A program made the translations under genes and the position numbers. 64,000 nucleotides of DNA from Verrucomicrobiaceae bacterium (GTDB lineage Bacteria > Verrucomicrobiota > Verrucomicrobiia > Verrucomicrobiales > Verrucomicrobiaceae). Within the stretch, counting starts at the first letter, position 1. Every line of letters starts with the position of its first letter. Location: positions 62,001 through 126,000 of the forward strand of contig JAIBCL010000011.1 of NCBI GenBank assembly GCA_019694165.1, given 5' to 3'. The notes under the pieces are model-generated. The model did not search any database. It had not been told where the DNA came from and saw only the letters and a program-made list of their open reading frames with translations. This document shows positions 4,841 to 63,053 of the stretch, in pieces.

Positions 4841-4921
4841 TCAAGTGAAGAAGCAGTTCGCGAAACCCGCGACAAGTATCGAGGCTGACAGGAACACAAA
4901 CAGACGAGCGCGGTTAATCAT
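4841..4921 (-). CDS. Possible tiny hydrophobic peptide overlapping trmO stop
   Basis: This is a 26-codon ORF whose ATG (4921) overlaps the end of trmO by 8 nt, an arrangement typical of translational coupling. It encodes a basic start (MINRAR) followed by a strongly hydrophobic run (LFVFLSASILVAGFANCFF), so it would be a single-pass membrane peptide or a bare signal-like peptide. The Cys is not preceded by a proper lipobox. I know no family for it. At this length a chance ORF is a serious alternative, so only the overlap and the clean membrane-like composition support it. Confidence 0.22.
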   Translation of the reverse strand: MINRARLFVFLSASILVAGFANCFFT

Positions 4922-5654
4922 GGCTCACGTCTGGGATGCCTTGTCTCAGAAGCCTTGGTTCTGTTCCTGAATCTGCGCTGGAGGCTTGAATGACATCGAT
5001 GCCTGCGTCGGTGACGCGCCATTTCACGTTCCATCCCGCCACCGTCATGCCATACGTCCGCTCCGGATCATCGTGATACGCGGGCTGCGGTTCGAGTTGG
5101 AGGAGGCGGGTGATGAGCAGGGCGTCGGGGCCGAGGGTAATGGCGAGGTCCGGCGGGATGTGGACGTCTTCGGGCGCGCGGAGTGGTGGTGGCGCGGCGG
5201 CCCAGTCGGCACGGGCGTCGGTGCGGCTCTCGCACCACGGAAGATACGGTTTGATGTCGAGCACGGGCGTGCCATCGACGGCATCGACGCCGGCGACCTG
5301 CAGCACGAGTCGCGGCTCGGTCTCGATGCGGATGAGCTTCACGAGGCTGAGGCTGATGGGATTTGGCCGGTTCGGGCTGCGCGTGGCGAAGACGCCGCGT
5401 CGCTCGTTGCCGCCTAGTCGCGGCGGACGAACGGTGGCCTTGCCATCCCACGGCGGCGATCGATGGAAAATGGTGACCAGCCAGATGTGTGAGAACGCCT
5501 CCAGCCCTCGCACGAAGTCGGCGCGGTTGAACTCGTCGTGAAACTCAACTCGACCGACCGCATCTTCGACCAGCCCGCTTTGGCGCGGAATACCAAACTT
5601 CTCCGCGAACGGCGTGCGCAGCGTCGCGATGGGGCGCATGGTGAAGGGGTCCAT
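4914..5654 (-). CDS. trmO: tRNA (t6A37-N6)-methyltransferase TrmO (YaeB/TsaA family)
   Basis: TrmO transfers a methyl group from SAM to the N6 position of t6A37 in tRNA-Thr, giving m6t6A. The 246-residue product matches the family end to end. It starts with the RPIATLRTPFAEKFGIPRQSGLV strand, followed by GLEAFSHIWLVTIFH and the signature GVFATRSPNRPNPISLSLVKL. The C-terminal half has DGTPVLDIKPYLP, which also fits. The ATG at 5654 places the family N-terminus correctly; a second in-frame ATG is at 5639. The reading frame stays open to 6044, but that extension has no family resemblance. A small overlapping ORF follows the stop codon. Confidence 0.92.
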   Translation of the reverse strand: MDPFTMRPIATLRTPFAEKFGIPRQSGLVEDAVGRVEFHDEFNRADFVRGLEAFSHIWLVTIFHRSPPWDGKATVRPPRLGGNERRGVFATRSPNRPNPISLSLVKLIRIETEPRLVLQVAGVDAVDGTPVLDIKPYLPWCESRTDARADWAAAPPPLRAPEDVHIPPDLAITLGPDALLITRLLQLEPQPAYHDDPERTYGMTVAGWNVKWRVTDAGIDVIQASSADSGTEPRLLRQGIPDVSHD

Positions 5655-5976
5655 CCAGCGAGTGTGAGGAGAGAGGATGACGCGGTCAACCGGCAGCCTG
5701 AGCAAAGAACGAAGGACGATACGGGAGTGAATCTGCGGCCCGATGAACCTGCATGAAACATGTGACCATGTGTTGCCGAGAAAGGGATTGCCTGGCGACG
5801 GATTCCTGGAATCCAGAAGCCCAAGGGTTTCTCGCTGTTCAGCCCGGGGTTCGCGAAACCCTGGTGGAGACGGATCCGCAGCCACGCTGAAGACGAGCGC
5901 GACATCGGCGCGACGGAATCGAAGCATGTCTTCCGCTGCGATCATCCGGTGACAGTATTCTCCGCCGACCATTCGC
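5655..5976. other. Intergenic region without a convincing gene
   Basis: These 322 bp separate trmO from the upstream amidohydrolase gene, and both are read on the minus strand. Open frames cross it but show no recognisable protein. It contains two short inverted repeats: GGATTCC-T-GGAATCC around 5803-5817, and AGGGTTTC with GAAACCCT around 5823-5865. Either could be part of a terminator or of a small dispersed repeat, but neither has a T-tract. Confidence 0.4.
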
Positions 5977-20097: not shown

Positions 20098-23000
20098 TTA
20101 CGGCGACTGCACCCTGAAGAAGCTCGCGCCGTCCGGGACGGTGAAAAGGAACTCCAGCTTGCCTCCGGCGTTGATCGTCGATTGGGGGGCGCTCAACGGG
20201 AAGGGATCGAAGTGGATCAAGTCGGACGACTTCTGCACGCCGAAGATGAGCTTGAACTGATTGGTGCCGGGGAGCTTTTGCAGAAGCGGCACATCCATAT
20301 TCAGGGCTTGCACATCGCTGGTGAGGAAAAGGCCGTTGTTGCGGAAGAAGGCGAGGCGGTCGCTGTCGTTGTGCAGGGGATTCACAAAGGGACTGCCGCT
20401 TTCGCTGTAGAGCGGGTTCGTGACGAGGTTGATCTCCTGTTGATTCGTCAGGCCGTCGCCATCGTCGTCGCCAGTGGGGGAAAGCGCGCGGGCGGTGAGG
20501 GTGATGTCGAAGGGGGACTCGTCGCTGTCGTTGCTGGTGATGCGAAGCGTGGTTGTTCGCGTGCCCGCAGTGGTGGCGGTGAAGGTGATCGGGACGGTGA
20601 TCGTCGAGCCGGGTGCCAGGGTGGTGGTTGTCGGAGGCGCGAAGGTGAAGTCCGTGGCGGTCGTGCTGAGGTTGGCCATGCCGAAGTCGGAGAGCATGAC
20701 TTGGCCGTGGTTGCTGATCAGGATGTTCCGCGTGGCGGTGCTGCCGGTGAGCAGGTAGCCAAAGTCGATGGTGGAGACACCGGCGATGAGATCGGTGGAG
20801 GGCTCGAGGCGCACGTCGAGTTCGGGCGCGGCGAGTTCGAGATGCATCGGCACATCGCACTCGGCCCAGGTCTGGCCGCCATCGACGCTGATCTCTGTCC
20901 AGACATCGAAGAAGCTGCTAATGCGGTAGTTTCCGCTACCGACATTAGTGACGGTGTGGCGTCCGAGTGATGCTTTGGTCGGACTTTCGCGAATGCGAAA
21001 CTCGGCGGGCGAAATCGTGCCGGTGAGGCCAAGGCTGAGCACTTCGGCATCGAAGTAGCGCGTGCTGCCGACAGTCTCGATGAGCGTGAGGTTGACCTCC
21101 ATATTCACATTCGCGCTGACGGAGGAACTGCTGGCACCGTTGCGAGTGAAGCTGGAGGTGAAAAGGCCCGATGCAGTGAACGGTGTCGCAACTCCAGGCA
21201 CGCTTGGAAGCGGTGCAGGCGGTGAGGTGAAGTCACACACGCTGGCCGCGCAGGTGCCATCGGAGCAGCGAATCGGAGTGCTCGATTGCTTGTAGATGCC
21301 TTGAGGCATGAAGTGATCGCTGTGTGTCAGCGAAGACATCACCTCATCCTCCGCCTCGAAGTGCAGCGGCAGATCGCTCGCGCTCCACGTCGCGCCGTTG
21401 TCGTGGCTGATCTCCGTGAAGACATCGAAGAAGCTGAGCACGCTGACGCTGCCGTCAGGATTGGTGACACGCTCGCAGCGTCCACGGGAGGGCAGCGACG
21501 GACTCTCGCGCAGCTTCATCCCTGCGGGCATGGTGCCGCCGCTCATGTCGAACTGCGTGATGTCCATGTTGTAAGTCGTGCGGTCAGCCGTGAGCTTGGG
21601 ATCAGTCCAGAAGACATAACCAAAGGTGAGCTGAGGGCGCGTGCGCGTGACGACTCCAGTGTCGCCAGCTTGATACTCGAGCACCGCATCGTAGTGGCGC
21701 AGGCCTATGAGCTGTCGGTCATCGACGAAGTTGAGCGTGCTGTCGATCAGCGCGGCAAACTGCGCCTGCGTGGGTTTGTCGCCGGTTTCAAAGTAGGTCT
21801 TGATGACATTTCGTGGGGCTTTGAACAAGGGTGGCAGCGGATCTGTGCTGCCAATGCCGAAGCGTTTGGGGCGCGAGGCGTCCACGCTTTCCATTTCCAG
21901 AGCCGTCGTCGCGGCGTGCCAGGTCTGGCCGCCATCGAGACTGAGTTCGAGGAAAACTCTCACCTGGCTGCCAGCGCCGAAACTCCCAGGCACAAGCACG
22001 AGCCGCTGGCGTCCGGTCGAGGCTCGTGTGGGGCTTTCGCGCAGCATCACGCCAGGCAGATCCGTGGTGAGGCTCAGGCCGCTGAGTTCGATATCCACTT
22101 CCTGCTGCGAACCAGACGTTGTCTTGTTCTGCTCCGTCCAGAAAATCCAGCCAAACTGAAGCTGACGGCGCTTTGGCGTCGATGACACACCACTGATGTA
22201 ATACCCGGTTGGGCATGAGCAGGTGCGCTGGTTGACGCCACCCGATGCTTCCGCCGGCAGGGGTCCATCTGGCTCGACGCTCGTCGCGCTGCCGATAACC
22301 AGACCGCTGACGGTGGCGTCTGTGCCTACGAAGTGCAGTTCGAAGTCCGGGTCCACCGCACGATGCGTGGCATGGGCCTCGGTGCCCCAGGTTTGATCCG
22401 TCGCGACCTCCAGCCCCACACGACTACAATTCAGGCGGCAGGCTTCCGCCGCAGGCGTCCATGTGCCGCCGCCATCGAGACTGATCTCGGTGAAGATGTC
22501 AAAGAAGCTGTCGATGAGTGTGCCGTTTCCAGTGTAGCCAGCAGGCTTCGTGCGAATAGTGGTCTGCCCTTGCGAAAGCAGCGTGGGGCTTTCCCGCAGC
22601 ATGAACGAGGCACTACTGACGCCCATCGCGGTGACCGTGAACACATATTTGTCTTCGATGCTTGTCGGCACCACGGTGAAGGTGAACGAGGCTGGCACCG
22701 TGAGCGACGACCAGGTCTGGCCGCCGTCAAAGGAAGCCTTGCAGCGGCACTGACAAGAGATCGTTCTCGCGCCTGACGCACTGGTGAGGGGCTGCGACGT
22801 TGCGAATCCATCCAACGCCAAATCGCGCACCATCACGTTTGATCCGTAAAGGATCGGCGGCGCTCCGGGCTCTGCCTCAAACGCACCGTCACGCGGTGGG
22901 AAGAAGTTCGTGGCGAAGGCATTGTCTTGCGCAGGTGTCGGTTCGAGGTTGAGACGGAGCAGATTGCTGCGCGGCGACCAGACGAGACCGTTGTCGAAGC

Positions 23001-25806
23001 TCACCTCGGTAAAGATGTCGAAGAAGCTCTGCACCATGTGACCTGCCATGCGGCCCTTGCGGCCGGTGTTGAACAGACACTGGCGAAACATCGCCCTTCC
23101 CAGCGACGGCAGTGTAGGGCTTTCGCGAATCTGGATCGTCGCTCCACCGCTCGTGATGGCGAAGGCAAAGTCGCGACAATCAAAGGTCACCGTGCCATCC
23201 GCGCGATCGTAACCGACGAGCAAGTTCTCCGTGTAAGTCGTCTGGAACGCCTGCCGTGTCGCGCCGCCGTCGGTGGAGATTTCGCCTTCGATGATGCCGC
23301 TGGACGGAATCACACGATCAGCGATTTCATTGTCCCAGGCTTGATACAAAGGGTCGGGCCGCTTCCGCATGCGATAGAGCGTCACGCTGCTCGACAGCAC
23401 CACCGGATCGCTGCACACGTAGTCGCCGCAGATCGGCACGCACACGGACGGGAAGAAATGCTCCTGCGGCGGTGCTTTGAACCCCATGCTTACCGGCAGC
23501 CCGCTCGAAGGCGTCCACGTCGCGCCGTTGTCGGTGCTGATCTCGGTGAAGACATCGAAGAACGAGAGCTGACCAAAGGAACTGCTCGGCGTGGTGCGCA
23601 CCGAGGTGCGGCCCAGCGATGCCTTCGTCGGACTCTCGCGCACGCGCACTGCGCCGAGGCCTCCGCCGCCGAGGTCGAGCGCGAGCAGTTCGCCGTTGAA
23701 GAACCGGATGTCATCCACACCATCATGGTCCGAATCATCATCCAGGAAGTCCGTGAGCCCGATGCTGCCGGTGCAATCACCGACCCAATCACGGAACGTC
23801 ACGCCACCATCGGTGGAGAGTTCGCCGGATGCGGTGGTCGTGAAGGTGAACGTCTTCGACGCGCCTGGATTCGGCAGGTTCGATCCATTGTGAATCTTGT
23901 GAATCATCACCCGACGCAGCACCACGCCATTCGACGCATAGATGTCCGACGGACACGACAACACGGACTCGGCAGGCGGGAAGTCGCTCGTCGTTGTGAT
24001 CTGCTCGCGTAGTATTTCCGGAGCATTCCATCGGAGGGGAGGGCCGGAAGATGAGCCCGTGACCTGCACTGTTCTTGCGTGGCAGATCAAGCATTCATAG
24101 AGCGCTCCGCCCGACTCCCACGTCGTTCCGCCATCGCGGCTGAGTTCGGTGAAGATATCAAAGAAGCTGCTGATCATGGATGTGCCATCCGGAGCGGCGC
24201 GCATCGCGGTCTTGCCGGTGGACGACTTCGTCGGACTCTCGCGCAGTTGAAGTGTGCCGCCGGAACCCAGCGTGGTGCTGAAGTCCAGCGCCAGCCATTC
24301 AATCGTATGCAACGCCGCGGACGCACCCGCGCCCACCGCCACCGCATTGATGCGCACGCTGGCCGTCGCGGTGCCGCGCACCGGCTCATAGCTCACGCCG
24401 CCATCCGACGACACCTCGCACTGCACTGTGATGTCAATGTTCTGGGTCAATGGCGGAGCACCGAGTGCCGGCGGCTTCACCGCTGATGAGGGCAATGAAA
24501 AGCTCAGCCCGCGAATGATCGTGCCCGAGGGATACTCGATGAGGTCCTCCTGCGTGGGGACGTCGCCGTTCTCAAAATGAGTCATCAGTGCGGGAGAATG
24601 CGATGAAGGCTGCGACTTCGCCACCGCGCTGGTGATTTCCGTGGGATTGAAAGCAAACGCCGCCACGTCCACGCCGGGCGTGCCGTGACTATTGGTGATG
24701 TAGCATGGCGAGCCATCGTTCGGCGACCACGTCGCGCCGTTGTTCAAACTGCACTCGAAGAACACATCGAAGAAGCTGCCGATGCGATACAAACCATCCG
24801 GCGCGCGTCGCGACGAAGCGCGACCCAGCGACGCCTTGGTGGGCGATTCACGAATGCGCATCCCCGCTGGCAGCGTGCCGCCACTGAGATTGAGGGCAAC
24901 CAGCTCTTCGTCATAGAAGTAGGCTTCCGAGGTCTTCGATTTCGCCTGATACTTCTTCGTCGCCGTGAATTCACACGCGAAGGGCGCGAAAGTTGTGCCA
25001 CCGTCAGCGGACACCTGGCCCGTCGCTTTGCCTTTCTCTGTCGTTTGATACAAGTTCCCGTTCAAAGGCAGGGAGGTGATGGTCGCGGGCGATGGCTTCA
25101 ATTGCAGATCACTCACCTGCACCAGATTCGGAAACTCGATCTTCCCAGGCACCTTGATCGCAGAGCCCGCAGGCGGCAGTTGGTTCTCCGTAGCCACCAG
25201 CAGTTCTGGCTCGGTCAGCTCGAAGTGCATCGCCGCAGAGCCAGGTATCCACGTTGCGCCACCATCCGCGCTGATCTCCGTGAAGACATCGAAGAAGCTG
25301 CTCACGTAGTAGTTCCCGCTCGGCACCTGGCGGATCGTGTGCTGACCGGTGGATTGCAGCGTCGGGCTCTCGCGAATCATGATGCCGCCGGGCAAACTCG
25401 TGGCCGAGAGCGACAGCACCTCGAGATCAAGCACTCCCGCCATGCCCATTGCGCTCGGCGTGAGGCGAAAAGAGATGTCCATCGGCACCGAGACAAACAC
25501 CGGCGTAGTGGAGCCGCCGCTGACGACACGGAAGTGCGCCGTCTCGCCGCACAGATAGGTCCCCGCACTCGTGCCCGTCGGTGGTGGCAGAGATTTGTCC
25601 GCCGAGTGGCAATGATCCATTTTGATCTGCACCGTCGCACCGTAGATCACATTCGCGGCAGCCGCGTTGCGGTAGATGCCGGTGGGTGATGGGAACAAGT
25701 TCGACGGGCTGGCGACTTCTGGAATTGCGACCGCAAACTGCGGAGAGACAAGACCGGCAGCGATGATCAGAGCGAACCGGGACGAGAGGGTGACCAGCGA
25801 GTTCAT
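20098..25806 (-). CDS. Giant exported protein with nine 'RESPT' repeats and an anchor-D-type domain
   Basis: This 1902-residue product (ATG at 25806; a TTG four codons earlier is possible) has a signal peptide ending near residue 27. Its body is nine diverged modules of about 170-205 residues. Each carries the block RESPTxxSxGR, then about 15 variable residues, then SFFDVFTEISxDGGxTW. The RESPT blocks fall near residues 144, 318, 523, 723, 893, 1072, 1257, 1433 and 1607. Several modules also contain scattered cysteines. About 1680-1780 is a choice-of-anchor-D/ASPM-like immunoglobulin domain (DFGMANLSTTATDFTF, GTRTTTLRITSND). A DDDGDGLTNQQE calcium-loop-like motif follows, and the C-terminus ends in FFRVQSP. 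There is no PEP-CTERM. I do not recognise the RESPT module by name. A cell-surface or matrix role is inferred from size and export only. Confidence 0.85.
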   Translation of the reverse strand: MNSLVTLSSRFALIIAAGLVSPQFAVAIPEVASPSNLFPSPTGIYRNAAAANVIYGATVQIKMDHCHSADKSLPPPTGTSAGTYLCGETAHFRVVSGGSTTPVFVSVPMDISFRLTPSAMGMAGVLDLEVLSLSATSLPGGIMIRESPTLQSTGQHTIRQVPSGNYYVSSFFDVFTEISADGGATWIPGSAAMHFELTEPELLVATENQLPPAGSAIKVPGKIEFPNLVQVSDLQLKPSPATITSLPLNGNLYQTTEKGKATGQVSADGGTTFAPFACEFTATKKYQAKSKTSEAYFYDEELVALNLSGGTLPAGMRIRESPTKASLGRASSRRAPDGLYRIGSFFDVFFECSLNNGATWSPNDGSPCYITNSHGTPGVDVAAFAFNPTEITSAVAKSQPSSHSPALMTHFENGDVPTQEDLIEYPSGTIIRGLSFSLPSSAVKPPALGAPPLTQNIDITVQCEVSSDGGVSYEPVRGTATASVRINAVAVGAGASAALHTIEWLALDFSTTLGSGGTLQLRESPTKSSTGKTAMRAAPDGTSMISSFFDIFTELSRDGGTTWESGGALYECLICHARTVQVTGSSSGPPLRWNAPEILREQITTTSDFPPAESVLSCPSDIYASNGVVLRRVMIHKIHNGSNLPNPGASKTFTFTTTASGELSTDGGVTFRDWVGDCTGSIGLTDFLDDDSDHDGVDDIRFFNGELLALDLGGGGLGAVRVRESPTKASLGRTSVRTTPSSSFGQLSFFDVFTEISTDNGATWTPSSGLPVSMGFKAPPQEHFFPSVCVPICGDYVCSDPVVLSSSVTLYRMRKRPDPLYQAWDNEIADRVIPSSGIIEGEISTDGGATRQAFQTTYTENLLVGYDRADGTVTFDCRDFAFAITSGGATIQIRESPTLPSLGRAMFRQCLFNTGRKGRMAGHMVQSFFDIFTEVSFDNGLVWSPRSNLLRLNLEPTPAQDNAFATNFFPPRDGAFEAEPGAPPILYGSNVMVRDLALDGFATSQPLTSASGARTISCQCRCKASFDGGQTWSSLTVPASFTFTVVPTSIEDKYVFTVTAMGVSSASFMLRESPTLLSQGQTTIRTKPAGYTGNGTLIDSFFDIFTEISLDGGGTWTPAAEACRLNCSRVGLEVATDQTWGTEAHATHRAVDPDFELHFVGTDATVSGLVIGSATSVEPDGPLPAEASGGVNQRTCSCPTGYYISGVSSTPKRRQLQFGWIFWTEQNKTTSGSQQEVDIELSGLSLTTDLPGVMLRESPTRASTGRQRLVLVPGSFGAGSQVRVFLELSLDGGQTWHAATTALEMESVDASRPKRFGIGSTDPLPPLFKAPRNVIKTYFETGDKPTQAQFAALIDSTLNFVDDRQLIGLRHYDAVLEYQAGDTGVVTRTRPQLTFGYVFWTDPKLTADRTTYNMDITQFDMSGGTMPAGMKLRESPSLPSRGRCERVTNPDGSVSVLSFFDVFTEISHDNGATWSASDLPLHFEAEDEVMSSLTHSDHFMPQGIYKQSSTPIRCSDGTCAASVCDFTSPPAPLPSVPGVATPFTASGLFTSSFTRNGASSSSVSANVNMEVNLTLIETVGSTRYFDAEVLSLGLTGTISPAEFRIRESPTKASLGRHTVTNVGSGNYRISSFFDVWTEISVDGGQTWAECDVPMHLELAAPELDVRLEPSTDLIAGVSTIDFGYLLTGSTATRNILISNHGQVMLSDFGMANLSTTATDFTFAPPTTTTLAPGSTITVPITFTATTAGTRTTTLRITSNDSDESPFDITLTARALSPTGDDDGDGLTNQQEINLVTNPLYSESGSPFVNPLHNDSDRLAFFRNNGLFLTSDVQALNMDVPLLQKLPGTNQFKLIFGVQKSSDLIHFDPFPLSAPQSTINAGGKLEFLFTVPDGASFFRVQSP
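20970..25390 (-). repeat. Nine protein-level RESPT/SFFDVFTE modules within the giant gene
   Basis: The conserved block recurs at roughly 25375, 24850, 24235, 23635, 23125, 22590, 22035, 21505 and 20985. The module is recognisable at protein level, but the DNA copies are well diverged, so the duplications are old. Copy 7 keeps RESPT but has VRVFLELSLDGG in place of SFFDVFTEISxDGG. Copy 8 reads RESPS. Confidence 0.8.
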
Positions 25807-25881
25807 GATTGAAAACAATCACCGCACCGCTTTCCAGGCACAAGGCCGTTGTGCTCTTTTTTGCGACCTGCGAACGGATGC

Positions 25882-30130: not shown

Positions 30131-30158
30131 TTGTGCCGCCATCGCGGCTCACTACTCT
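30131..30158 (+). promoter_or_regulatory. Sigma-70-like promoter ending just before the GHL10 gene start
   Basis: TTGTGC (30131-30136), a 16-bp spacer and TACTCT (30153-30158) lie immediately upstream of the ATG at 30169. Transcription starting 6-8 nt after the -10 box would leave a leader of only a few nucleotides. The 12-mer CTACTCTCGCGG, which includes the -10 box, recurs in the same relative position before thyA, again with a TTGNNC box 16 bp upstream. Confidence 0.45.
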
Positions 30159-30168
30159 CGCGGGTGCC

Positions 30169-32541
30169 ATGAAATGCATCGCCATCCTCTTTGCTCTCGT
30201 TTCGTCCTGTCTTGCAGACGCCGTCATCGATGCCTGCGTCTATCCAGACGATGCGACCGCCGCGAAGGCATGGCTCGCACGCGAAGGATCGCCACCGCCG
30301 GCAATGCAGCAGGCCGATGGCGCGGCGGTGCTCACGCTCGACTGCAAATTTGCCACCTCGAACGTCGGGCGCGGCTGCTGGGATCGCGAATTGAACCTCG
30401 ATCTCGGCGCGGCGGAAGGATTGCAGCTCGACATGTTTTGCGCGGACGCTGGGCCGATCTCGAGCTTCATGGTCTATCTCAAGACCGGCGGCGGCTGGCG
30501 CACGCACACTTTCTCGCTGCGGCGCACCGGCGGGTGGGAGACGGTGATCATCCCGAAGTCCGAGATGCGCGAGGATGGCAAGCCGGGCGGTTGGGATGAG
30601 ATCACAGCGCTGCGTCTCGCTGCGTGGAAGGGCGACAATGCGAACACGTCGTTTCGCATCCGCAATCTGCGCAAGTTCGGCGTCCTCGGCGAGGACACGC
30701 GCATCGTGCTCGTGCGCGGCGCCGACGAAAAGGATCCCTTCGGCGCAAACGTGTCGAAACTCCTCGGCGACCTCGGCCTGCATCACGCGTTCATCGCCGA
30801 GTCGGAGCTGAACGGCGACATCCTCTCCAAAGCACGGCTCGCGATCCTGCCGCACAATCCAAAGCTGCCCGACACAGCGACCGATGCGCTCATCGAGTAT
30901 CTGAAGCGCGACGGCCGACTGCTCGCGTTTTATTCCATCCCGTCGAAACTGGAGGAAGCCACCGGCATCGGCCACGGCAAGCACACGATGCCGGCGGCGA
31001 AGGGACAGTTTTCCTCGATTCGTCCGCTCAGCGACTGGCTGCCCGGCGCGCCCGCCGTCACAGCGCAGGCTTCATGGAACATCAACTCGGCGACGGTCGT
31101 GGAAGATCGCAGCCGCGCGATCGCGGAGTGGTACGATGCCGAAGGGAAGCCGACGGGCTTCCCCGCCGTGATTGCGTCGCCGAACACCGTATTCATGTCG
31201 CATGTGCTGCTTGATGATGATCGCGAAAACAAAGCACGTCTGCTGCTGGCGATGGTCGGATATTTGCAGGACGGGGTCTGGCGGGAGGTGATCGAGGGTC
31301 GTCGCGCAAAGCTGGACCACATCGGTCCCTTCAACCGTTTCGAGGACGTGAGCGCGCATCTGCTGAAGAATCCGGGGGCGGACGTCGGTGAGCGCATCAA
31401 TGGCGCGCTCAGAATGCTGGGTGACGCGGAGAAGGCGGCGAAGGCCCGCCGCTTCGGGAAGGCGCTGGATTTGCAGGACGCCGCGCTGCTGAAAGTGCGC
31501 GAGGCATGGTGCTGCGCGCAGCCGTCGAAACCGGATGAATTCCGGGCCATGTGGTGCCACAGCGCTTTTGGCGTGAAGGGCATGACGTGGGATGCGGCCA
31601 TCAAGCGGCTCAAGGACAACGGCTTCACCGCCATCATGCCAAACATGCTGTGGGGCGGCGTGGCGTATTATCCGGGCGAAGTCCTGCCCGTGGCCGAAAG
31701 TGTGAAGGAGAAAGGCGACCAGATGGCGGCGTGCATCGAGGCGTGCAAGAAGCACGGCGTCCAGTGCCATGTGTGGAAGGTCGATTGGAATCTCGGCCAT
31801 GATGTGCCCGCGGCGTTCGTCGAGAAGATGCGCGCGGAGGGCCGCTTGCAACGCAGCTTCAGCGGCGAGGAGCAACCGTGGCTCTGCCCGTCGAATCCCG
31901 CGAACGTGCGGCTCGAGCTCGACGCCCTGCTCGAAGTCGCGCGGAAGTATCCCATCGACGGCATCCACTTCGATTACATCCGCTACCCCGGCGCGGACCA
32001 CTGCTTCTGCGCGCCGTGCCGCGAGCGGTTTGAAAAAGCCACCGGCGAACCCGTCGCCGACTGGCCGAAGGACGTGCAGATGAAAGGCGTCCGGCGCGAG
32101 CAATGGATCCCTTGGTGCCAGAACAACATCACCACGCTCGTGCGCACCACGAGCGAGGAAGTGCGCAAGGTGCGCCCCGGCATCAAGGTCAGCGCCGCTG
32201 TGTTCCGGAACTGGGACGTGGACAGCCGCATCGTGATGCAGGACTGGAAGCTGTGGTGCGCGAAGGGCTGGCTCGATTTCGTGTGCCCGATGGACTACAC
32301 CACGAACAACGGCACCTACGACTCGTGGGTGCGCCGGCAAAAAATCCTCGCAGGCCCCGCCGGACTCGTGCCCGGCATCGGCGCATCATCCTCGCACTCA
32401 TCCCTCGCCGCAGACGAAGTCATCAGCCAGATCGAGATCACAAGAAAGCACGACACGAAGGGCTTCATCATCTTCAACTACGGCGAGCGCGAAGCCGGCG
32501 AGGTCATCCCCCTGCTCGGCCTCGGCGCGACGAAGAAGTGA
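30169..32541 (+). CDS. Exported glycoside-hydrolase-like family 10 (GHL10/DUF187) protein
   Basis: This 790-residue exported protein has a signal peptide MKCIAILFALVSSCLADA. The N-terminal half (about 20-430) is a putative carbohydrate-binding beta-sandwich region (LDLGAAEGLQLDMFC, WETVIIPKSEM) followed by a region that resembles a glutamine-amidotransferase-like fold (VLVRGADEKDPFGANVSKLL, IEYLKRDGRLLAFYS). The C-terminal part (about 455-785) is a GHL10 TIM barrel with NGFTAIMPNMLWGG, the hallmark DGIHFDYIRYPG, and WLDFVCPMDYTTN. GHL10 proteins are thought to cleave or bind extracellular glycans. The barrel is complete. The substrate is unknown. Confidence 0.88.
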   Translation: MKCIAILFALVSSCLADAVIDACVYPDDATAAKAWLAREGSPPPAMQQADGAAVLTLDCKFATSNVGRGCWDRELNLDLGAAEGLQLDMFCADAGPISSFMVYLKTGGGWRTHTFSLRRTGGWETVIIPKSEMREDGKPGGWDEITALRLAAWKGDNANTSFRIRNLRKFGVLGEDTRIVLVRGADEKDPFGANVSKLLGDLGLHHAFIAESELNGDILSKARLAILPHNPKLPDTATDALIEYLKRDGRLLAFYSIPSKLEEATGIGHGKHTMPAAKGQFSSIRPLSDWLPGAPAVTAQASWNINSATVVEDRSRAIAEWYDAEGKPTGFPAVIASPNTVFMSHVLLDDDRENKARLLLAMVGYLQDGVWREVIEGRRAKLDHIGPFNRFEDVSAHLLKNPGADVGERINGALRMLGDAEKAAKARRFGKALDLQDAALLKVREAWCCAQPSKPDEFRAMWCHSAFGVKGMTWDAAIKRLKDNGFTAIMPNMLWGGVAYYPGEVLPVAESVKEKGDQMAACIEACKKHGVQCHVWKVDWNLGHDVPAAFVEKMRAEGRLQRSFSGEEQPWLCPSNPANVRLELDALLEVARKYPIDGIHFDYIRYPGADHCFCAPCRERFEKATGEPVADWPKDVQMKGVRREQWIPWCQNNITTLVRTTSEEVRKVRPGIKVSAAVFRNWDVDSRIVMQDWKLWCAKGWLDFVCPMDYTTNNGTYDSWVRRQKILAGPAGLVPGIGASSSHSSLAADEVISQIEITRKHDTKGFIIFNYGEREAGEVIPLLGLGATKK

Positions 32542-32634
32542 CCGTCGGCAGCCGTACCGAGGCATCGCATCCCCTGCCCCTCCCCGCCGACTTCCGCCTT
32601 GTCACACATCCGCCCACCCGTCACCATCATTGCC

Positions 32635-34548
32635 ATGAACATGCGCAGACTTCTCTCGTGGTTCCTTCCAGTCCTTTGTTTCCTTTCCGCCCGCGCCCAG
32701 GACAAGCCCAAGTCTGACGAACCCAAGCTTGATGTCGCCTGGCTGGCCGAGCACTACACCAAGTACGAGTACCGCATCCCGATGCGGGATGGCGTGAAGC
32801 TCTTCACGCGCGTGTATGTGCCGAAGGATGATTCGCAGGCATGGCCGCTCATCCTGACGCGCACGCCGTATGCGTTGAAGCCGTACGGCGAGGACAATTT
32901 CATGGACCCGTCCGGCTCCACCTTCGGCACCCTCGCGAAGGACAAATTCATCATGTGCGCGCAGGACGTGCGCGGGCGCTATGCCTCCGAAGGCATCTAC
33001 ATGCATGTGCGCCCGCACAACCCGAACAAAGGCCCGAAGGACATCGACGAGAGCAGCGACACCTACGACACGATCGACTGGCTGGTGAAGAACATCCCGA
33101 ACAACAACGGCAAGGCCGGTATGTACGGCATCTCGTATCCCGGCTTCTACACGGCGATGGGCATGATCGACAGCCATCCGGCGCTCAAGGCCGCCTCACC
33201 TCAGGCACCCGTGACCGACTGGTGGGTGGGCGATGACATCCATCACAACGGCGCATTCTTCCTCGCGCAGAATTTCGACTTCTTCTACAAGTTCACTTTC
33301 AAGATGGAGGACCCGCTGCGCGATACACTGCTCAGCTACCGCTTCGGCACGCCGGACGGCTATGACTTTTTCCTCCGCATGGGGTCGCTCGACAAGTCCG
33401 ACGAGTTGCTCAAGGGCCAGGCCCCCGAGTGGTCGGAGTTTCTCGCGCACCCGAACTACGATGACTTCTGGAAGGCGCGAAACCCACGGCCCCATTTGAA
33501 GAACGTGCACTGTGCGGTGCTCACCGTCGGCGGCTGGTTTGATGCCGAGGATTTGTTTGGTCCGCTCGAAGTGTACCGTAACACCGAACGCCTGAATCCT
33601 GGCATCGACAACCGCATCGTCATCGGCCCGTGGTCGCACGGCCAGTGGGGCAAGGGTCCGGGCGACAAGCTCGGTCAGATCAGCTTCCATGCGAAGACGA
33701 GCGAGTACTACCGCGAGAAGATCGAGCTGCCGTTCTTCCGCCAGCATTTGAAGGATGCAAAAGGGGACAAGGATTATCGTCCCGCGGAAGCCACCGTCTT
33801 CGAAATGGGCACCATGCAGTGGAAACGCTACGACACCTGGCCGCCGAAGAACGTGGTGCCGCGCACCTTGTATTTCCACCCCGGCCACGCGCTATCGTTT
33901 GATGCACCGAAGCAGGGTGGCGAGGCTTTCGATGACTACGTCAGCGATCCAAACAAGCCGGTGCCCTTCACCAATGATCCAAGCACCACGTATCCGAAAG
34001 CCTATCCAATCGAGGATCAGCGTTTCGTTTCCTCCCGCACCGACGTGCTCGTGTACGAGACGCCGCTCCTGGACGCCGACATCACCTTTGCCGGCCCGCT
34101 GAAAGCCACCCTGCATGTCTCCACCACCGGCACCGACTCCGACTTCGTCATCAAGCTCATCGATGTTTACTCCGGCGACTACCCGAACCCTGAGCCGAAC
34201 TCCGCTGACGTGAAGCTCGGCGGCTACCATCAGCTCGTTCGCGGAGATGTCTTCCGTGGCCGCTTCCGCAACAGCCCCGAGAAGCCCGAGCCTTTCGAAC
34301 CCGGCAAGCCGGCGAAGATCGAGATGAACATCCCTGACGTGTATCATTGCTTCCGCCGCGGTCATCGCATCATGATCCACGTCCAGAGCACCTGGTTCCC
34401 GCTGGTCGATCGCAATCCGCAAACCTTCGTGCCGAATATCGCGCACGCGAAGCCCGAGGACTTCAAGAAAGCCACGCAGCGCGTATATCGCGGAACAGAA
34501 CGGGGGTCGTCACTGACGGTTCATGTGCTTGGCGCAGGGCAGAATTGA
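32635..34548 (+). CDS. Exported CocE/NonD family serine hydrolase (S15-like)
   Basis: This 637-residue secreted alpha/beta hydrolase has a signal peptide (MNMRRLLSWFLPVLCFLSARA) and an N-terminal strand RIPMRDGVKLFTRVYVP. The catalytic serine lies in GISYPG (Ser167), the aspartate in GGWFDAED (Asp303), and the histidine in GPWSHGQW (His335). The C-terminal jelly-roll typical of X-Pro dipeptidyl-peptidase/CocE proteins follows (ADITFAGPLKATLHVSTTGTDSDFVIKLIDV). Family members hydrolyse acyl esters or amide/peptide bonds, so specificity cannot be assigned from sequence. It lies about 90 bp after the GHL10 gene on the same strand and may share its transcript. Confidence 0.93.
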   Translation: MNMRRLLSWFLPVLCFLSARAQDKPKSDEPKLDVAWLAEHYTKYEYRIPMRDGVKLFTRVYVPKDDSQAWPLILTRTPYALKPYGEDNFMDPSGSTFGTLAKDKFIMCAQDVRGRYASEGIYMHVRPHNPNKGPKDIDESSDTYDTIDWLVKNIPNNNGKAGMYGISYPGFYTAMGMIDSHPALKAASPQAPVTDWWVGDDIHHNGAFFLAQNFDFFYKFTFKMEDPLRDTLLSYRFGTPDGYDFFLRMGSLDKSDELLKGQAPEWSEFLAHPNYDDFWKARNPRPHLKNVHCAVLTVGGWFDAEDLFGPLEVYRNTERLNPGIDNRIVIGPWSHGQWGKGPGDKLGQISFHAKTSEYYREKIELPFFRQHLKDAKGDKDYRPAEATVFEMGTMQWKRYDTWPPKNVVPRTLYFHPGHALSFDAPKQGGEAFDDYVSDPNKPVPFTNDPSTTYPKAYPIEDQRFVSSRTDVLVYETPLLDADITFAGPLKATLHVSTTGTDSDFVIKLIDVYSGDYPNPEPNSADVKLGGYHQLVRGDVFRGRFRNSPEKPEPFEPGKPAKIEMNIPDVYHCFRRGHRIMIHVQSTWFPLVDRNPQTFVPNIAHAKPEDFKKATQRVYRGTERGSSLTVHVLGAGQN

Positions 34549-39503: not shown

Positions 39504-42500
39504 ATGAACCGAACCCAACCTCAACACCGCCAACGTCGCTCGCCTTTGCTTGCCTGGATGCGTTGGCGATTGAAGACACCAGTCACCGCACTGCTCCTCG
39601 GCTGTTTTGTGCTGTGGACGACTCCGGCCCGGGCGCTCACGGGCTATTGGAACTTCGATGGCACGGGCAACTGGTCGAACTCGGGCAACTGGCTCGGCGG
39701 CACGATTCCGAACGGCGTTGGTGACATCGCAAACTTCAATTTCAACATCGGCAGCAATCGCACGGTCACACTCGATGCGCCTGTCACGCTCGGCGGCCTT
39801 GTGATCGGCGACACGCTGGGCGCGCAGGCTTACACGTTTGCGGGGCCTGGCGCGCTGACGCTGGATGCTCTCGGTGCGGCTCATGCGTCCATCAACAAAT
39901 ACAACTCCACCACCGATGTGTGGCAGGCACCGCTGAATTTGAATGACGCGCTGGATGCAAACATCTTCGCGGGCATCCTGGACATGACCGGAGCCGGCAG
40001 CACGCAGATCGCCATCAGCAGCAGCGCGTCGGACATCATCAAGAACAACGGCGGCAACCTGCGGCTCAATTTGGACGCCTCGGCGTTCAACGGGAACTGG
40101 ATCGTCAATCAAGGCACGCTGACCATCGGCGGCGCGAATGCCAACACGGCAGGAAACCTCGGCAATGGCACGGGTGGCATCATTCTGAATGGAACGGGTC
40201 TCGCCGCCGCATCGGTTCTGAGCTTGAACAACAACGGCACGGGCAGCAACGGCAACATCACCTACACCGGCAACAACGACGTGGTGCTGCAAGGCGCGGC
40301 GACGATCAACGCGGACCGCAACTACATCAGCGGAGCGAACACCGGCAACACCATCGTGCTCGACAACCTGACGATGAACGGCGGCATCCTCGGCGTGACG
40401 AGCGCGAACAGCTATGCGCTGCGCTTCAACGGCACGACGACGCTTGTGGGTGACACGAACGTCTTCTCAGTCGGCAACAACTCGACGGTGAACCTGCCGA
40501 ACCTGACTCTCGGCGGTGTGATCGACGACGGCGCAAAAAGCCGCGCGTTGATCAAAGAAGGCACAGGCCGCATGGTCATCGCCAACAGTGCGAACACCTA
40601 CGACGGCGCGACGGTCGTGAAGGATGGCTTCCTGCAAATCGCATCCGGCGCGAACCTCGGCACGGGCAAGGTTTTCGTGAGTGGCGGTGTGCTGAGCCTC
40701 GTGGCGGCGAATCAGACCGGCGTGGCAACGATGCCAGGCGGCTTGAATCTCGTCTCGCAGATTGGAACGACGCGCGCCGTGCTGCCAGTGATCGGGAACA
40801 CCGGCTTCACCATCGACAGCGCGAATCCGCTTAATGTCACCGTGCCGATCTACGGTATGGTGCTCGGTGTCGATGGCGACATCGCGAATAACATCGACCT
40901 CAGCCAGATCGGCGGCACGGGCAACACGCGCGTATCCGTGGCGAACGTCGGCGGCGTGAACCGCACTTACACCGGCACGATTTTGCCCGCGACCGACAAC
41001 ACGATCCGTCTCAACTCGGCCGCGAACATCTTCATCATCTCTGGCACCAACGCGCTCGGCGGCGCGACTTCGACGGCGAATGTCATCGCCGGTCTTGATT
41101 ACGCGACGCCGCTGAATTTGCCCGGCGTGAACATCACACAAGGCAACACAGGCACCATCTCGGTGCGTGGCAACAATTCAGCGACCCTCGGCAACGTGAC
41201 CGTCAATCGCGGCATCACCGCGAGCATTGAAGGCACGGGCCTGACCACACCGCTCGGCAACGGCGTCGTGACAGCGCTCGGTGGCACGGTCACAACGGAT
41301 GCGACGACGGACTCGAAGTTCGGCAACACGGATTTCCGGCTCTACGGCGGCAGCACACTTTTCATCGACAACGCCAGCGTCACGTCAGCGAACGCGGACC
41401 GTCGAATGCTGACCACGAGCAACATCGACCTAACAAGTTCCACCTTCCGCCTGCGCGGCGATGGCGGCGCGGCGACGGTTTCATCGCAGGCGGTGAATTC
41501 CATCGACTACTGGGGCGGCAGCACGCTCAGCATCGATACGGACGGCACCACGGCAGGCCGCCTCACCACGCTGACAACAGGCTCACTCAACCGCCAGGGC
41601 ACCGCCACGCTGAACATCCGCAATATCGGCGGCCAGGCGACGACCTTCGGCACGGCATCGGCAACGCAGAAGCTGCTCGTAACCTCTGCGCCAACGGTAA
41701 CCAATGGGATGATCGGCGCCAACGTCGCGCTATGGGCAGGCACCGCATCGAATGACGCGGGTGACACGCGTTTCGCCACTTACACGGCCAACGGCATCGA
41801 AGCCGCGACCTTCAATCTCACACCAACCACCGCCACGGCGCTGCAAGCTGCGACGGCGACGCAGATCGTCGATTTCAACGCCGTCACCGGCACGATCACG
41901 ATGACAGCCAGTGCCACGATGCAGGCGTTGCGACTGCGAACGACGACGAACACACAGATCCTCAGCAGCGGCGCGTTCACCCTCACGCTCGGCAGCGCTG
42001 CGGCGGTCGGGCAAGGCGCGGGCTTGCAACTCGAGCACACGGCGAACAACGAAGTCATTCATCCGCTCAACATCGCCTTCGGCACGCAAGAAGGCATGAT
42101 TTACACGGCGACAACCGGCGGCACATCGGGCATCGTGACGATGAGCGGCGTGTTGAGCGGCACCAATGGCATCACGCGCTTTGGCGACGGCATCCTGCGC
42201 CTCACGGGCACGAACACCTTCACCGGTCCGCTCACGATCAATGCCGGCGAGACGCGCTTGAATAACGTGCGCGCCGCCGGAGCCACGACCGGCACGCCGA
42301 ACGACATCAATCTCTGGGGCGGCTCGCTCTACTTCGAAGCCGCGACGCAGCGCTACAACAACAACGTCACCTTCTTCAACGACGCGCGACTCGGAAACGT
42401 CAATGTCGCCAACACAGGCTTCAACAACCTCGCCGTCGCCGCACGCACCGGCAGCACGGCTCCCGTGGTGCTCGACATCCGCGTGAACGGCGGCAGCAAT

Positions 42501-45500
42501 CAAACCACGGCCTACGGCGGACTGACGCTGAACGGCCCGGCGCAGTTCTACAACACCAACCTCCTTCAAATCAACGGCGGCATCAGCGGCTCGGGTCGCC
42601 TGGAGAAGTTTGGCAATGAGCGCCTCCTCATCGGCGGTGATTCGAGCGGCTATCTCCAGCCGATCACGGTGAATACCGGCGTGATCAGCAGCCTCAACGC
42701 CACCAGCACGGCGAAGCCTTTTGGCACGGGCACGATCACCCTGAATCCCGGCGGCAGCATTCGTCTCGCGGCTTCCAGCAACATCAACGCATCGCAGGTG
42801 ACGATGAATTCCGACCTCGGCGGCATCGGGGGCATCGGCATGAGCTACGTCGCAAATCCGACTTCACTGCCCGTGATGACGATCAACTCTTCTGCGCCAT
42901 GGAAAGGCACGCTCGGCATCGGCGCGGTCGGTTTCAGCCAGAACATCGACCAGGGCACGCTTTGGGGCGGCGGCGCGTATCTCGGAGCGTTGCTCGGCGA
43001 CACGGGCATCTACACCGGCACGCTGACGCCCGACGGCACAACCTTCCGCCTCGGCACCGGCCAGGGCACGATCCGCATCGACAGTCCGCTCACCGGAGCA
43101 TCGAATAGCGTGCAGGTCGGCCTCTCGATGACCGGCGATGTCGGCCGCGCCGATCAGGCCGTAAACAATGCGGGCGGCACGGTGCAGTTTGATGTGCCGA
43201 TGACCTACGGCGGCGCGACGGTGCTGCAAACCAACGGCGCACTGCGCATCAGCGCCACGACAGCGACCACCGGCATCGGCGCGATCACGCTCAACGGCGG
43301 CATTTTGCAAGGCGACTCGCTGGTGAGCAATTTCCGAGGCATCGCGCCGCTCTCCATTGCCAATACGATCGAACTCACCGCCGACAGCACGATCCAGATG
43401 CAGAACAACGCGGGCGATTTCCGGCTCGCTGGCCCGGTGAATCTCGCTTCGGGTTCCACTGGCGTCGTGCGCCAGCTCACAGTCGGCATTGATGGCACGA
43501 ACGCCGGTCAGCTCTATCTCGACGGCGGCATCAGCGACGGCACTGGCGGCTCTGGCAATCACTTGATCAAGGCCGGACAAGGCGCGGCCTTCATCACCAC
43601 GCCAGTGAGCTACACGGGCACGACGAACATCACCGGTGGATTCCTCGCGATCAATTCGCCCGCTGATCTCGCCAGCAGCTCGCAGATCGTGCTCTCCGGC
43701 GGCGGCCTCGCTGTGTGGGAGAATTCGATGACGCTCGACCGCAACGTGAGCATTCAGAGCACGGCGAACAACACGCCCGGCTGGTTCGACGTGCAGGCGG
43801 GACTCACGCTCACGCAGAGCGCGGCGAGCACCATCGAAGGTCCGCAAAACGCTGCTTTCACAAACTCCGGTATGCTCATGAAGCGCGGTCTCGGCACGCT
43901 GATCCTCAATGGCAGCAATGCGATGACCGGCGTGCTCGCGCTCGACGGTATCCTGCAAATCAACAACCAGGCCGCGCTCGGCGATCCGGCACGCGTTGGC
44001 GCTTCCGACATCCAGATCGGCGGTGACTTCGCCATTGGCGGCACGACAACGGTCACGCGCTTCACCGGCGGCACGCTGCGCATCAATGACAACGTGGTCA
44101 CGTCGCGCGGTATCCAGTTCAACAACAACAGCTCGTCCATTTACGGCGGCGGCATTGACGTCACGCCGGGCAACAACTTCGCGGTCACAGGAATCCTCTC
44201 GCAGGGCACCGACTTCGATTTCTGGTTTAAGACCGGCGCTGGATCGCTCGTGACGACGGGCGCGAATACGTTCAGGCAATTCGCCATGGTCGGCGGCACT
44301 TATCAATTTGGCACGAGCACACCGTGGGCGAACAGCACAGCCACGAGCACGGATACGACGACCATCGAGATGATCGGTGGCACGATGCGCGCCGTGAACG
44401 CGGCCGCGAGCATCGCGCTGGCCAACAACGTCAGCACGACGAACTACAACTACAGTGGCGGCATGATTCTCCAGATGGAAAGCGGCGTGCTCCAGAGCAT
44501 CGAGTTCCAGGCCGATGCGCTCACGCGGCAGAATCAAGGCACGCTCGTGCTGCAAACGATGAACGGCACCACGCTCGGCGCGGCGGGCAGCACGAATGCA
44601 GCGCGTGTGATTCCGACGAATGCCGTGAACAGCGGCCTCGCGCGAGCCTCGGCGCTGAGCAGCAGCGGAATCTTCGCTCCGCATCTCGTCGCTGCCGACA
44701 GCACGGGCATCGCGAGTTTTGTCACCGACGATGCGACCAACGGCATCAAGCCCTACTCTGGCGCGACGTTGTCTTCGCTCGTTGGCAGCAATCCGACGAG
44801 CATCGCCGACATCGGCGGCACGCAGACGCTCAGCGGCAGCAACAGCATTTTTGCCCTGCGCACGACCGCCGACATCAACGGCGGCACGCTGAGCATTCGA
44901 GCCGTCGACAACGTGAACATGGGCGGCATCCTCATCAACGGCAGCAACACGATCAGCAGCAATGTTGTCTTTGATCCGACTTCCGCCACAGCTCCAGGCA
45001 CCGGCACACCGGCTGAGGGCCTCGTCTATGTGAAGGAAGGCGAGAACGCGGCTCTCAGTGGCAAGCTGCTCGCGAATGCATTCACGAAGTTCGGTCGCGG
45101 CACGCTCACGCTCAGCGGCGGCGGTGCGGTTCTGGGCGACGTCAGCATTCAAGACGGCACGGTGAAAGTCGGCGCGACGAATCCGCTGAGCCGCATGGAC
45201 AGCGAGTTGAACATCAACTCGGGCGCGACGCTCGACTTGAACGGCAACAGCATCGCGGTCGAGACGCTCGGCAGCAACAACCGGCAGGTCACCGGCACCG
45301 GCGGCGGTGTGAATTTCGGCGGTAGCGTCACGAACGCGGCTGGCGGCAGCGCGGCGACGCTCAGCATGGCCGGGCCGCAGAGTTCGACCTTCACCGGCAC
45401 CATCAATGGCAACTTGAAGCTCATGAAGGCAGGCAGCGGCGTGCTCACCATCGACGGCTATCGCGCCAGCACGCCGGACTCGGGCAGCAACACCTTTACT

Positions 45501-48500
45501 GGTGGCACGAACGTCTATGGCGTTGGCACCACGGGCGGATTGCTCATCGACAACGCGCCATTCGCATTCGGCGGCGCGAATGGCTCGACGCCTGGCGATG
45601 TGAATCTTTACAGCGGCACGCTCGACTTCCGCTACAGCGGCAATGCCACCACCTTCAGCATCGCTGGCGGCACGAACGGCCAGCAATACAACAACCTCGT
45701 CGTGCGCATCGGTGCGGACGGCACAAACGGCGTCACGCTCAATGTGAAGGGCCCCGGCTTGATCAATGTGAATCAAAGCACCGGCGCGATCGGTCAGGGC
45801 AACATCATCCAGGTCGGCACGCTAAACATGACCGACACCTCGCTCAGCAGCAGCGGGGCGAATCTGTATCGCTTCCGCGCCGCCGGGCCGGTGAACATTC
45901 AAGGTGCGCAGGCCAGCTTCAACACCACGAGCACCGGCCCAGCCGGCATGATCGAACTCGCGGGCGTCATCGGCGGCAGCGGCTCGCTCAACAAGCTCGG
46001 CGACACCGTGCTCGGCGCGGTCGTCATTTCGGGCAATGCGAACACTTACAGCGGCGGCACAAACATCATCGCGGGCGAGGTGCAGGTCACGGCCACGAGT
46101 GGCACGCCGCTCGGCTCGGGCGCGGTGCGCGTCTTCCCCACCGGCACGCTGCGTCTCGCGGGCAATGGCAGCGTGAATGGCGCAAAGCTCGAAGTGATGA
46201 GCAGCGCCACGGCGCTCGGCGCGATCTCGCTCGATCAGAATTTCAATCCGACGGTGCTCACGAGCGCGAACTTCGGCAGCGTCTATAACAACACGTTGCA
46301 GCTCTCGCAGCCCTATTGGACGCAACCGCTCGACCTCGCCGCCATCGGCGATGGTCGCAGCTTCCTTGGCACCGGATTGGGCCAGGAAGTGAAATACATG
46401 GCCGCCACGCTCGGCGCGGGCGTGGCCGATCCGGCGATCACGGCGACGGGCGTTTATCGTCTTGTCGGTGGATCGAGCAATCTCGCGTTCGATGGCGTGA
46501 ACAACGTGCTCACGGGCAACAACTACCTCCAGCTTGGACCGCAGCGCGGCAATGTGCTGGCCGCACCGACCAATGGCGGCAACGCGGTGGTGATTCGCAA
46601 TTCGAACAACTTCACCGCCGGCACGCAGATCACCGAGGGCACCACGCTCGCGATTGAAACCGGCGGCTCGCCCATCGGCGAGACGCCGCTCGGCTCCGGC
46701 GCGGTGGAGGTGTATGGCACGCTGCAAATCTCCGGCAATCTCGGCTCCGCCTTCAATGCAAGCACTGGAAGCAATGCGAACACGATCACGCTGCGGCCCG
46801 GCGGTCAGGTGCGCATCATCGACTCCTTCAACACACTCGTCGCCGGTGATCAAGGCCGCTGGGGCGACACCGTAGCCGTCGATTTAAACGGCGGCATCTT
46901 CCGCCTCGACGGCGCGGCGAACTGGCAGACGACCGAAACCATCGGCGACGTCACTGCGCGCAAGGGCGGCACGCTGACCGTGGTCAAAAACAGCGCGGCC
47001 TCCAGCGCGCAGTTGAACGTTGCCTCGCTCGCCCGAGCGGATCGCGGCTCGGTCTCGATCAACTACACCGCCGGCTTCCTCGGCCAGAACACGAACACGC
47101 CGCTGAGCTACGAACGTCTGCTGGTAAACGGTGGCGTCGCTGTCGGCGGCACCACGACGAATGGCAGCGGCTTCACGAACACCGGCATGGCTGCTCCATG
47201 GATCATCGACCGCGTGGCGAACACCTTCGTCGGCTACAACACGACCACCGGCTTCCAGCCTTTGATCAGCGCGGCTCCGGGCGTGGGTGAAGTGGCCTAC
47301 AACAAGATTGTGTCCGGCGCGCTTTCCGCAGGCGGACTCGTCGCGGGCGACATCGCGGACCTCACCACGGCTGCGAAGACGCTGGCGGACAATCCGACGC
47401 TCTACGCACTGCGCACAAATCAAAACATCAGCCCGACTGCGGGCAACAACACGATGACGCTCACCAGCGGCGGCCTCATCATGACGGCGGGCACGATCAA
47501 TCCTACGAGCGCGATCACCAGCGGCTACGTCTCGCCGATGACGCTGAACTTTGGCGCTGGCGGTGGCGGCGAGGCGCTGATCTTCGTCGGCGCGGCGACT
47601 TCCACGATCCAAGCGCAGATCGTTGCGGCGCAAGGCCTCACGAAGATGGGTCCGAACCAACTCACGCTCACGTCGATCAATCCCGGCATCGGCGCACCGG
47701 TCGTGATCAATGAAGGCACCTTGCTCGCGCGCGTTCCTGTGGCAGGTGGTGGTAGCGGCGCGGCGGTCGGCACGGTTTTCAATGGCCAGGACGTGATCTT
47801 GAACGGTGGCGCGTTGCAACTTGCCTCGCAGCTCGCGAATGCCACGGGCACTGCTTCTGAGATCGCCAGCAATGCGACTGTCACCGGAAGCTTCGGTAGC
47901 AATGTCCTCGTTCGCGCTGACTCGACGCTCGGCAACAATGGCGTGGCGCAATACGTGCGGATCAACAACCTCACCATCGCGAACGCGGCGGGCGCTGCGG
48001 CGATGAACAACAACGGCGTCATCGCGCTCGCGCTGCAAAGCGGCATCTGGGTCGGCGGCACGACGACGCTAAGCACGCAGGCACGGCTCAACAGCACCTT
48101 CAATGGCATGTCGCAGACAACGCTCGCAGGAATCGTTACGGGAGCTGTGATCGAGAAATTCGGCAACGGCGCGATCACGCTGCTCAACGGCGCAAACAAC
48201 TACTCCGGCGGCACCATCATTCACGGCGCGGCTGCGGCCACTGCGACGAGCGCCGTCGCATCCGGCTTCCGCGGCACTGGCACGCCATTTGGCACCGGCG
48301 ACATCACCATCAATCCCGGCGGCGTGCTGCGCCTCGCGGACAATGCAAACATCGCCAGCAACGCCGTGACGATGAAGTCGGATGACATCGGCCTGGCCGG
48401 CATCGGCATCGCGCACAATGCAGCCTTGCCCACGATCATCACCAGCGGCTCTCCGAGTGCGGGACAGATCAAACTCGAAACCACCGGAGCTTACGGCGGC

Positions 48501-62220: not shown

Positions 62221-62248
62221 TTGCACTGCCGGTCATTCCCGCTACTCT
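62221..62248 (+). promoter_or_regulatory. Sigma-70-like promoter of thyA, predicted leaderless
   Basis: TTGCAC (62221-62226), a 16-bp spacer and TACTCT (62243-62248) end 7 nt before the thyA ATG at 62256. Initiation at the normal distance from the -10 box would fall on or next to the A of the ATG. The same 12-mer CTACTCTCGCGG lies before the GHL10 gene at 30152-30163. Confidence 0.5.
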
Positions 62249-62255
62249 CGCGGCG

Positions 62256-63053
62256 ATGCAGGAGTATCACAGGCTTTTGAAGAAAGTGCTCGAGCACGGC
62301 AGCTACCGGGAGGACCGGACCGGCGTGGGGGCGTATTCTGTTTTCGGCGAGCAGAGCCGCTACGATCTGGGCGCGGGCTTTCCCGTGGTGACCACGAAGA
62401 AGCTGCATCTGCGCTCCATCATCCACGAGCTGCTCTGGTTCATCAAGGGAGACACGAACGTCCGCTACCTCAACGAGCACAAGGTCAGCATCTGGGACGA
62501 GTGGGCCGACGAGCGCGGCGACCTCGGTCCCGTGTACGGCGCTCAGTGGCGGCGCTGGGAGGGAGTGCCCGGCGCGGAACCGTACGACCAGTTGCGCACG
62601 GTGACCGAGGCGATCAAGAAGAACCCCTACAGCCGTCGCCACATCGTCAGCGCCTGGAACGTCGCCCGCATCAGCGAGATGGCCCTGCCTCCCTGCCATG
62701 TGCTGTTTCAGTTTTTCGTGGACCGGGGGAAGCTGAGCTGCCAGCTCTACCAGCGCAGCGCCGATCTCTTCCTCGGCGTGCCTTTCAACATCGCCTCCTA
62801 CGCCCTTCTTGCGATGATGGTGGCGCAGGTCTGCGACCTGGCTCCGGGCGAGTTCATCCACACCTTCGGCGACCTGCACCTCTACTCAAATCACCTCGAT
62901 CAGGCGCGCCTTCAACTCTCCCGCGAGCCGCGCCCGCTTCCGGTCATGAAAATCAACCCCGACCGGAAGGACATCGACGAATTCGTCTTCGGTGATTTCA
63001 CGCTCGAAGGCTACGATGCGTGGCCGACGATCAAGGCGGACATCGCCGTTTGA
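62256..63053 (+). CDS. thyA: Thymidylate synthase
   Basis: The enzyme methylates dUMP to dTMP with 5,10-methylene-tetrahydrofolate, the last step of de novo thymidylate synthesis. The 265-residue protein matches the E. coli length and motifs: [42 protein letters not shown], the catalytic [11 protein letters not shown] (Cys147), and [21 protein letters not shown], plus the C-terminal [13 protein letters not shown]. The ATG at 62256 gives the family start ([15 protein letters not shown]); the open frame back to 62166 overlaps the divergent gene's leader and is not family-like. No dihydrofolate reductase gene is adjacent. Confidence 0.97.

Follow-up and report, generated by a model that had tools for sequence, protein, structure and literature searches.

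The GHL10 gene, thyA and their upstream boxes

The window analyzed here (the whole 64,000-nucleotide stretch of DNA) carries two unrelated genes on its forward strand with a promoter-like pair of hexamers just ahead of the start codon. One of these encodes a GHL10-domain protein of 790 aa (Pfam PF02638; positions 30169..32541) and is preceded by a -35 box, TTGTGC (30131..30136), and, after a 16-bp spacer, a -10 box, TACTCT (30153..30158), that ends 10 nt from the ATG. The other is thyA, encoding a 265-aa thymidylate synthase (Pfam PF00303; 62256..63053), where a pattern scan of the window, which also located the GHL10 pair, finds TTGCAC (62221..62226) and, again 16 bp downstream, TACTCT (62243..62248), 7 nt from the ATG. 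Both boxes are thus present as a sequence-only reading of this DNA had described them. The two sites have a TTG-type -35, a TANNNT-type -10 and a 16-bp spacer, as sigma-70-type promoters do, and the nearness of the -10 box to the ATG is a feature of leaderless (TA-led) genes; no Shine-Dalgarno sequence lies between the -10 box and the ATG of either gene. The same reading had noted a shared 12-mer, CTACTCTCGCGG, in the same position before both genes; it lies at 30152-30163 ahead of the GHL10-gene ATG (30169) and at 62242-62253 ahead of the thyA ATG (62256), so that "the same position" holds to within 3 nt and is not exact (10 versus 7 nt from -10 box to ATG).

Both start codons look right from their sequences. 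That of thyA appears to be fixed by homology, as M1 aligns across 29 relatives, and that of the GHL10 gene is credible on our own reading of the protein's N-terminus, which resembles a signal peptide; the GHL10 frame stays open upstream as far as a GTG at 30127. The gene upstream of the GHL10 gene is RmlD-like, on the same strand and separated from it by a 73-nt gap. ThyA and its neighbour are divergently oriented, and thyA therefore needs a promoter of its own, either no more than 56 bp away or in the neighbouring gene.

Among 38 genomes searched, just two clear orthologues of the GHL10 gene were found beyond its own genome, so footprinting of this gene is uninformative; by eye, the box is absent upstream of the orthologue in genome G026. 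The thyA upstream regions could be compared at 29 loci, own genome included (30 were taken, and L180 was left out because no reading passed the filter). TTG-N15-19-NANNNT is present 4-13 nt before the thyA ATG in 11 of the 29 (shifted controls: mean 0.97, maximum 4) and is lacking at that distance in the other 18; five of the 11 have the TANNNT form (control mean 0.08, maximum 1). The sole congener has the same architecture, TTGATG-N16-TACGCT, upstream of its thyA. Among 80 named thyA loci the closest match is that of a Verrucomicrobiia MAG, with 72% identity, which serves as a hint of the phylum.

The shared 12-mer and the exact motif

TTGNNC-N16-TACTCT occurs at two sites in the window, against 0.01 expected from shuffled sequence. 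The identity of the 12-mer is weak evidence, since recurrence of 12-mers is frequent both in the window, where 1,229 different ones are found at least twice on the + strand, and near starts, where 47 pairs among the 643 non-operon genes of the genome sample described below have a common 12-mer at matching offsets in the zone -45..-1, compared with 35 in a control zone at -105..-61. CTACTCTCGCGG itself has four sites genome-wide, and the two outside the window are both within genes and antisense. Beyond the -10 box that they share, the agreement of thyA and the GHL10 gene over this 12-mer is probably a coincidence.

When the motif is sought in the whole 7.8 Mb with spacers of 15 to 18 bp (TTGNNC-N15-18-TACTCT), its sites prove to be non-randomly placed and not enriched in number. 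There are 15 of them, compared with 32 for the reversed control pattern, and on these counts the exact motif was rejected as a genome-wide class. Five of the 15, however, end 6-10 nt ahead of a start called on their own strand (loci L009, L014, L016, L017 and L019, of which L016 and L017 are the window's own two sites); given that about 0.24% of positions lie 5-11 nt before a start, the binomial P is 2e-10, and it is 4e-6 when the window sites are left out (3 of 13). Further sites lie 20, 27, 30, 62, 95 and 1,387 nt from a start, and four of the 15 have no same-strand start inside their 3-kb locus.

Promoter-like signals in a genome sample

A sample of 1.224 Mb of the 7.80-Mb genome, made up of the window and stretches of three contigs (C22, C61 and C12), was searched for position-dependent signals before genes. 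Genes were called with a simple hexamer-based caller that is blind to upstream signal, and all start codons are thus computational; of the 834 genes called, 643 are lead (non-operon) genes, whose neighbour is 40 nt or more away or on the opposite strand, and 191 are operon-internal. EM motif discovery, whether unrestricted or confined to the zone 3-13 nt ahead of starts, did not converge on a single consensus or a clean -10, with mixture fractions from 0.45 to 1.0 that were no lower at control positions than near starts, and we therefore used model-free counts. In the EM ranking of the 643 lead genes thyA was 71st and the GHL10 gene 404th.

In the lead genes TTG is concentrated at -38..-34 (106 versus 44.7 expected) and TANNNT at -17..-11 (36 versus 11.5). 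TTG-NANNNT pairs that end 5-11 nt before starts with spacers of 16-18 bp number 61 versus 9.6 expected (24, 26 and 11 for spacers of 16, 17 and 18, against about 3 each), and spacers of 13-15 and 19-22 are not enriched (2-4 versus 2.2-3.4). Such a box is present in 57 of the 643 lead genes, compared with a mean of 8.0 and a maximum of 18 in 17 shifted controls. The signal is on every sampled contig (TTG observed/expected 27/14.1, 34/14.8 and 39/14.5, and 6/1.3 in the window), and with the window left out there are still 56 pairs versus 9.1; the strict form with TANNNT and a 16-bp spacer then stands at 11 versus 2.47. Operon-internal genes have five joint-box sites in 191 genes against 0.5 expected, few yet above chance, and these may be separate promoters or errors of the caller.

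The consensus of these boxes is neither TTGNNC nor TACTCT. The base after TTG is A or C in 49 of the 56 pairs outside the window; in the TTG-aligned set, A (0.31) and C (0.30) are about equally frequent in column 6, TTGNNC accounts for only 12 of the 56 pairs, and TTG-TACTCT occurs once outside the window against 0.25 expected. TACTCT is found in the -20..-9 zone of only three of the 643 non-operon genes. A special TTGNNC-TACTCT class was accordingly rejected, there being no preference for C at position 6 or for exact TACTCT. The proposal of a promoter class that gives leaderless or near-leaderless mRNAs survives in its positional signal, in the 16-18 bp spacer, and in the occurrence of the signal in three relatives and not in E. 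coli (below); it does not survive as a special class of TTGNNC, TACTCT and CTACTCTCGCGG (12/56; 3/643).

C is favoured just before the start (0.60 at -1 and 0.50 at -2 in non-operon genes). We rejected this as a transcription-initiator signal, since it is equally strong in operon-internal genes (C at -1, 0.68) and internal in-frame ATGs are likewise preceded by C (0.57). The -1 C is strongly favoured in all four sampled (probable) Verrucomicrobiota genomes, at 0.48-0.60 in lead and 0.43-0.74 in operon-internal genes, and it is partly a matter of codon composition.

Relatives and control genomes

The same caller was applied to 400 kb each of three related genomes, G003 (same family) and G029 and G032 (same order, other families), and to two controls, 200 kb of E. 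coli K-12 and 200 kb of the Thermus plasmid pTT27. Joint TTG-NANNNT pairs are in excess in all three relatives: 24 versus 4.7 in G003, 32 versus 7.9 in G029 and 29 versus 7.4 in G032. The E. coli K-12 segment has no such enrichment (1 versus 3.3) and a strong Shine-Dalgarno peak (63 versus 8.8). Plasmid pTT27 has joint pairs (6 versus 0.7) of a different emphasis, in that its -10 is dominant (TANNNT, 21 versus 1.8) and its TTG is without a peak (6 versus 4.6), whereas in the genome studied here the TTG is strong and the -10 is weak (106 versus 44.7 and 36 versus 11.5, above).

Shine-Dalgarno words are not enriched before the 643 lead genes (56 versus 88 expected). The 3' end of the 16S rRNA of this genome retains CCTCC, so Shine-Dalgarno use elsewhere in the genome is possible. 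Operon-internal genes are also without Shine-Dalgarno enrichment (35 versus 28.7 expected).

Leaderless genes in other bacteria

The leaderless genes described in Deinococcus-Thermus and Actinobacteria likewise lack a Shine-Dalgarno sequence and have, some 6-10 nt ahead of the start codon, a -10 of TANNNT type (PMC3160421, PMC12340547), a layout also displayed by the pTT27 control. The groups listed by Zheng et al. 2011 as having leaderless genes do not include the Verrucomicrobiota (PMC3160421). In Akkermansia muciniphila, however, which probably shares its phylum, the Verrucomicrobiota, with the present organism, Cappable-seq placed 10% of high-confidence transcription start sites at annotated gene starts, that is, leaderless, and -35 and -10 elements were found upstream of start sites (PMC4782308); the leaderless starts are measured there, in another species, and predicted from sequence here. 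Akkermansia is also named among genomes that are poor in Shine-Dalgarno sequences and yet have an intact anti-Shine-Dalgarno (PMC10783764), and the genome studied here resembles the Shine-Dalgarno-scarce genomes of that report in having CCTCC at the 16S 3' end and little Shine-Dalgarno signal before genes. A literature search of partial coverage found little transcript data for this branch and, beyond the Akkermansia Cappable-seq, no work on leaderless promoters in the phylum.

Interpretation of the boxes

The two boxes are very probably ordinary sigma-70-type promoters that adjoin their start codons and would give leaderless or near-leaderless mRNAs, the leaderless step being one that we infer from box positions and spacing. 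The promoter that RNA polymerase would use has a TTG(A/C)-like -35, a 16-18 bp spacer and a weak TANNNT or NANNNT -10, and transcription would begin at the start codon or within about 4 nt of it. The distance from a -10 box to the transcription start is usually 6-8 nt; by this measure the predicted leader is 2-4 nt long for the GHL10 gene (10 nt), and thyA (7 nt) would lack one, give or take 1 nt. The thyA mRNA would then be leaderless and the GHL10-gene mRNA nearly so, and ribosomes would presumably enter at a 5'-terminal or near-terminal AUG with no Shine-Dalgarno helix.

Might the boxes of the GHL10 gene and thyA instead be chance matches, with the true promoters elsewhere? For the GHL10 gene, transcription could read through from the RmlD-like gene, which is on the same strand and only 73 nt upstream, and the 8.0 of 643 genes that have a box at shifted positions mean that about one in seven near-start boxes is perhaps due to chance. 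Nonetheless, both boxes combine strict TANNNT with a 16-bp spacer, a form less often met by chance (11 versus 2.47 outside the window), the divergent thyA has to find a promoter within 56 bp or inside its neighbour, and the same architecture stands ahead of the congener's thyA, so that we consider a chance match improbable. Slightly less probable still is that TACTCTCGCGG is the binding site of a regulator common to thyA and the GHL10 gene, in a small regulon. An identical 12-mer upstream of two unrelated genes would fit such a site, and no other 12-mer is common to the near-start regions of the 27 window genes; on the other hand, the box sits where a -10 would, with a correctly spaced TTG, and as a regulon site the 12-mer was rejected on the antisense, intragenic position of its remaining two genome copies and on how common near-start sharing is generally (47 pairs versus 35 in the control).

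We give the least credence of all to misannotated start codons, by which the promoters would be normal and translation would start farther downstream (or, for the GHL10 gene, upstream), leaving a normal leader or a box within coding sequence. Start assignment is indeed computational, and the GHL10 frame is open up to the GTG at 30127. But that GTG would add 14 residues ahead of the signal-peptide-like N-terminus, homology fixes the thyA start, and the sample-wide peak is located 5-9 nt before the called starts. We return, then, to sigma-70-type promoters adjoining the start codons: the GHL10 gene and thyA would have a box in common because it is the general promoter type of the lineage, and not because they belong to one regulon. 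For these two genes the layout is ordinary housekeeping architecture; it is known from other bacteria and seems to serve many genes here and in related genomes.

On balance we also favour, with a good deal less assurance, a broader reading in which leaderless or near-leaderless sigma-70-type starts are a standing, order-wide mode in this (probable) Verrucomicrobiota branch, used by some 8-10% of first genes or more, with the anti-Shine-Dalgarno kept and little Shine-Dalgarno use even within operons. The sequence rule TTG(A/C)-N16-18-NANNNT, 5-11 nt from the start, offers a means of locating promoters and correcting start codons in this branch, and the finding is a further sign that leaderless initiation is common beyond the Actinobacteria and Deinococcus-Thermus.

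Other genes of the window

Five window genes have the box: the GHL10 gene (30169-32541), thyA (62256-63053) and the genes at 4914-5654(-), 20098-25806(-) and 32635-34548. The last of these, a peptidase S15 family gene that is next after the GHL10 gene, has TTGTCA-N17-CACCAT at 32599..32627 on the + strand, 7 nt from its ATG. The two minus-strand genes have TTGACC-N17-CACACT (5661..5689), 6 nt from the ATG of 4914-5654(-), and TTGTGC-N17-GATTGT (25815..25843), 8 nt from the ATG of 20098-25806(-).

The window also contains a single open frame at 39558-59507 (+) of about 6,650 aa (6,852 aa counted from its first ATG), which is preceded by a frame of 1,510 aa that has fn3, CBM96 and Calx-beta domains; the giant frame possibly encodes a very large surface or secreted protein. 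Finally, CATTC-like runs (gcattc, tcattc, ccattc) lie directly before thyA in several relatives, for example at loci L165, L174 and L176, and CATTCC is the most enriched hexamer at -22..-1 of the genes of this genome (8 versus 0.3 in the first sample); these CATTC-like units may form a dispersed repeat or belong to a variant of the -10.
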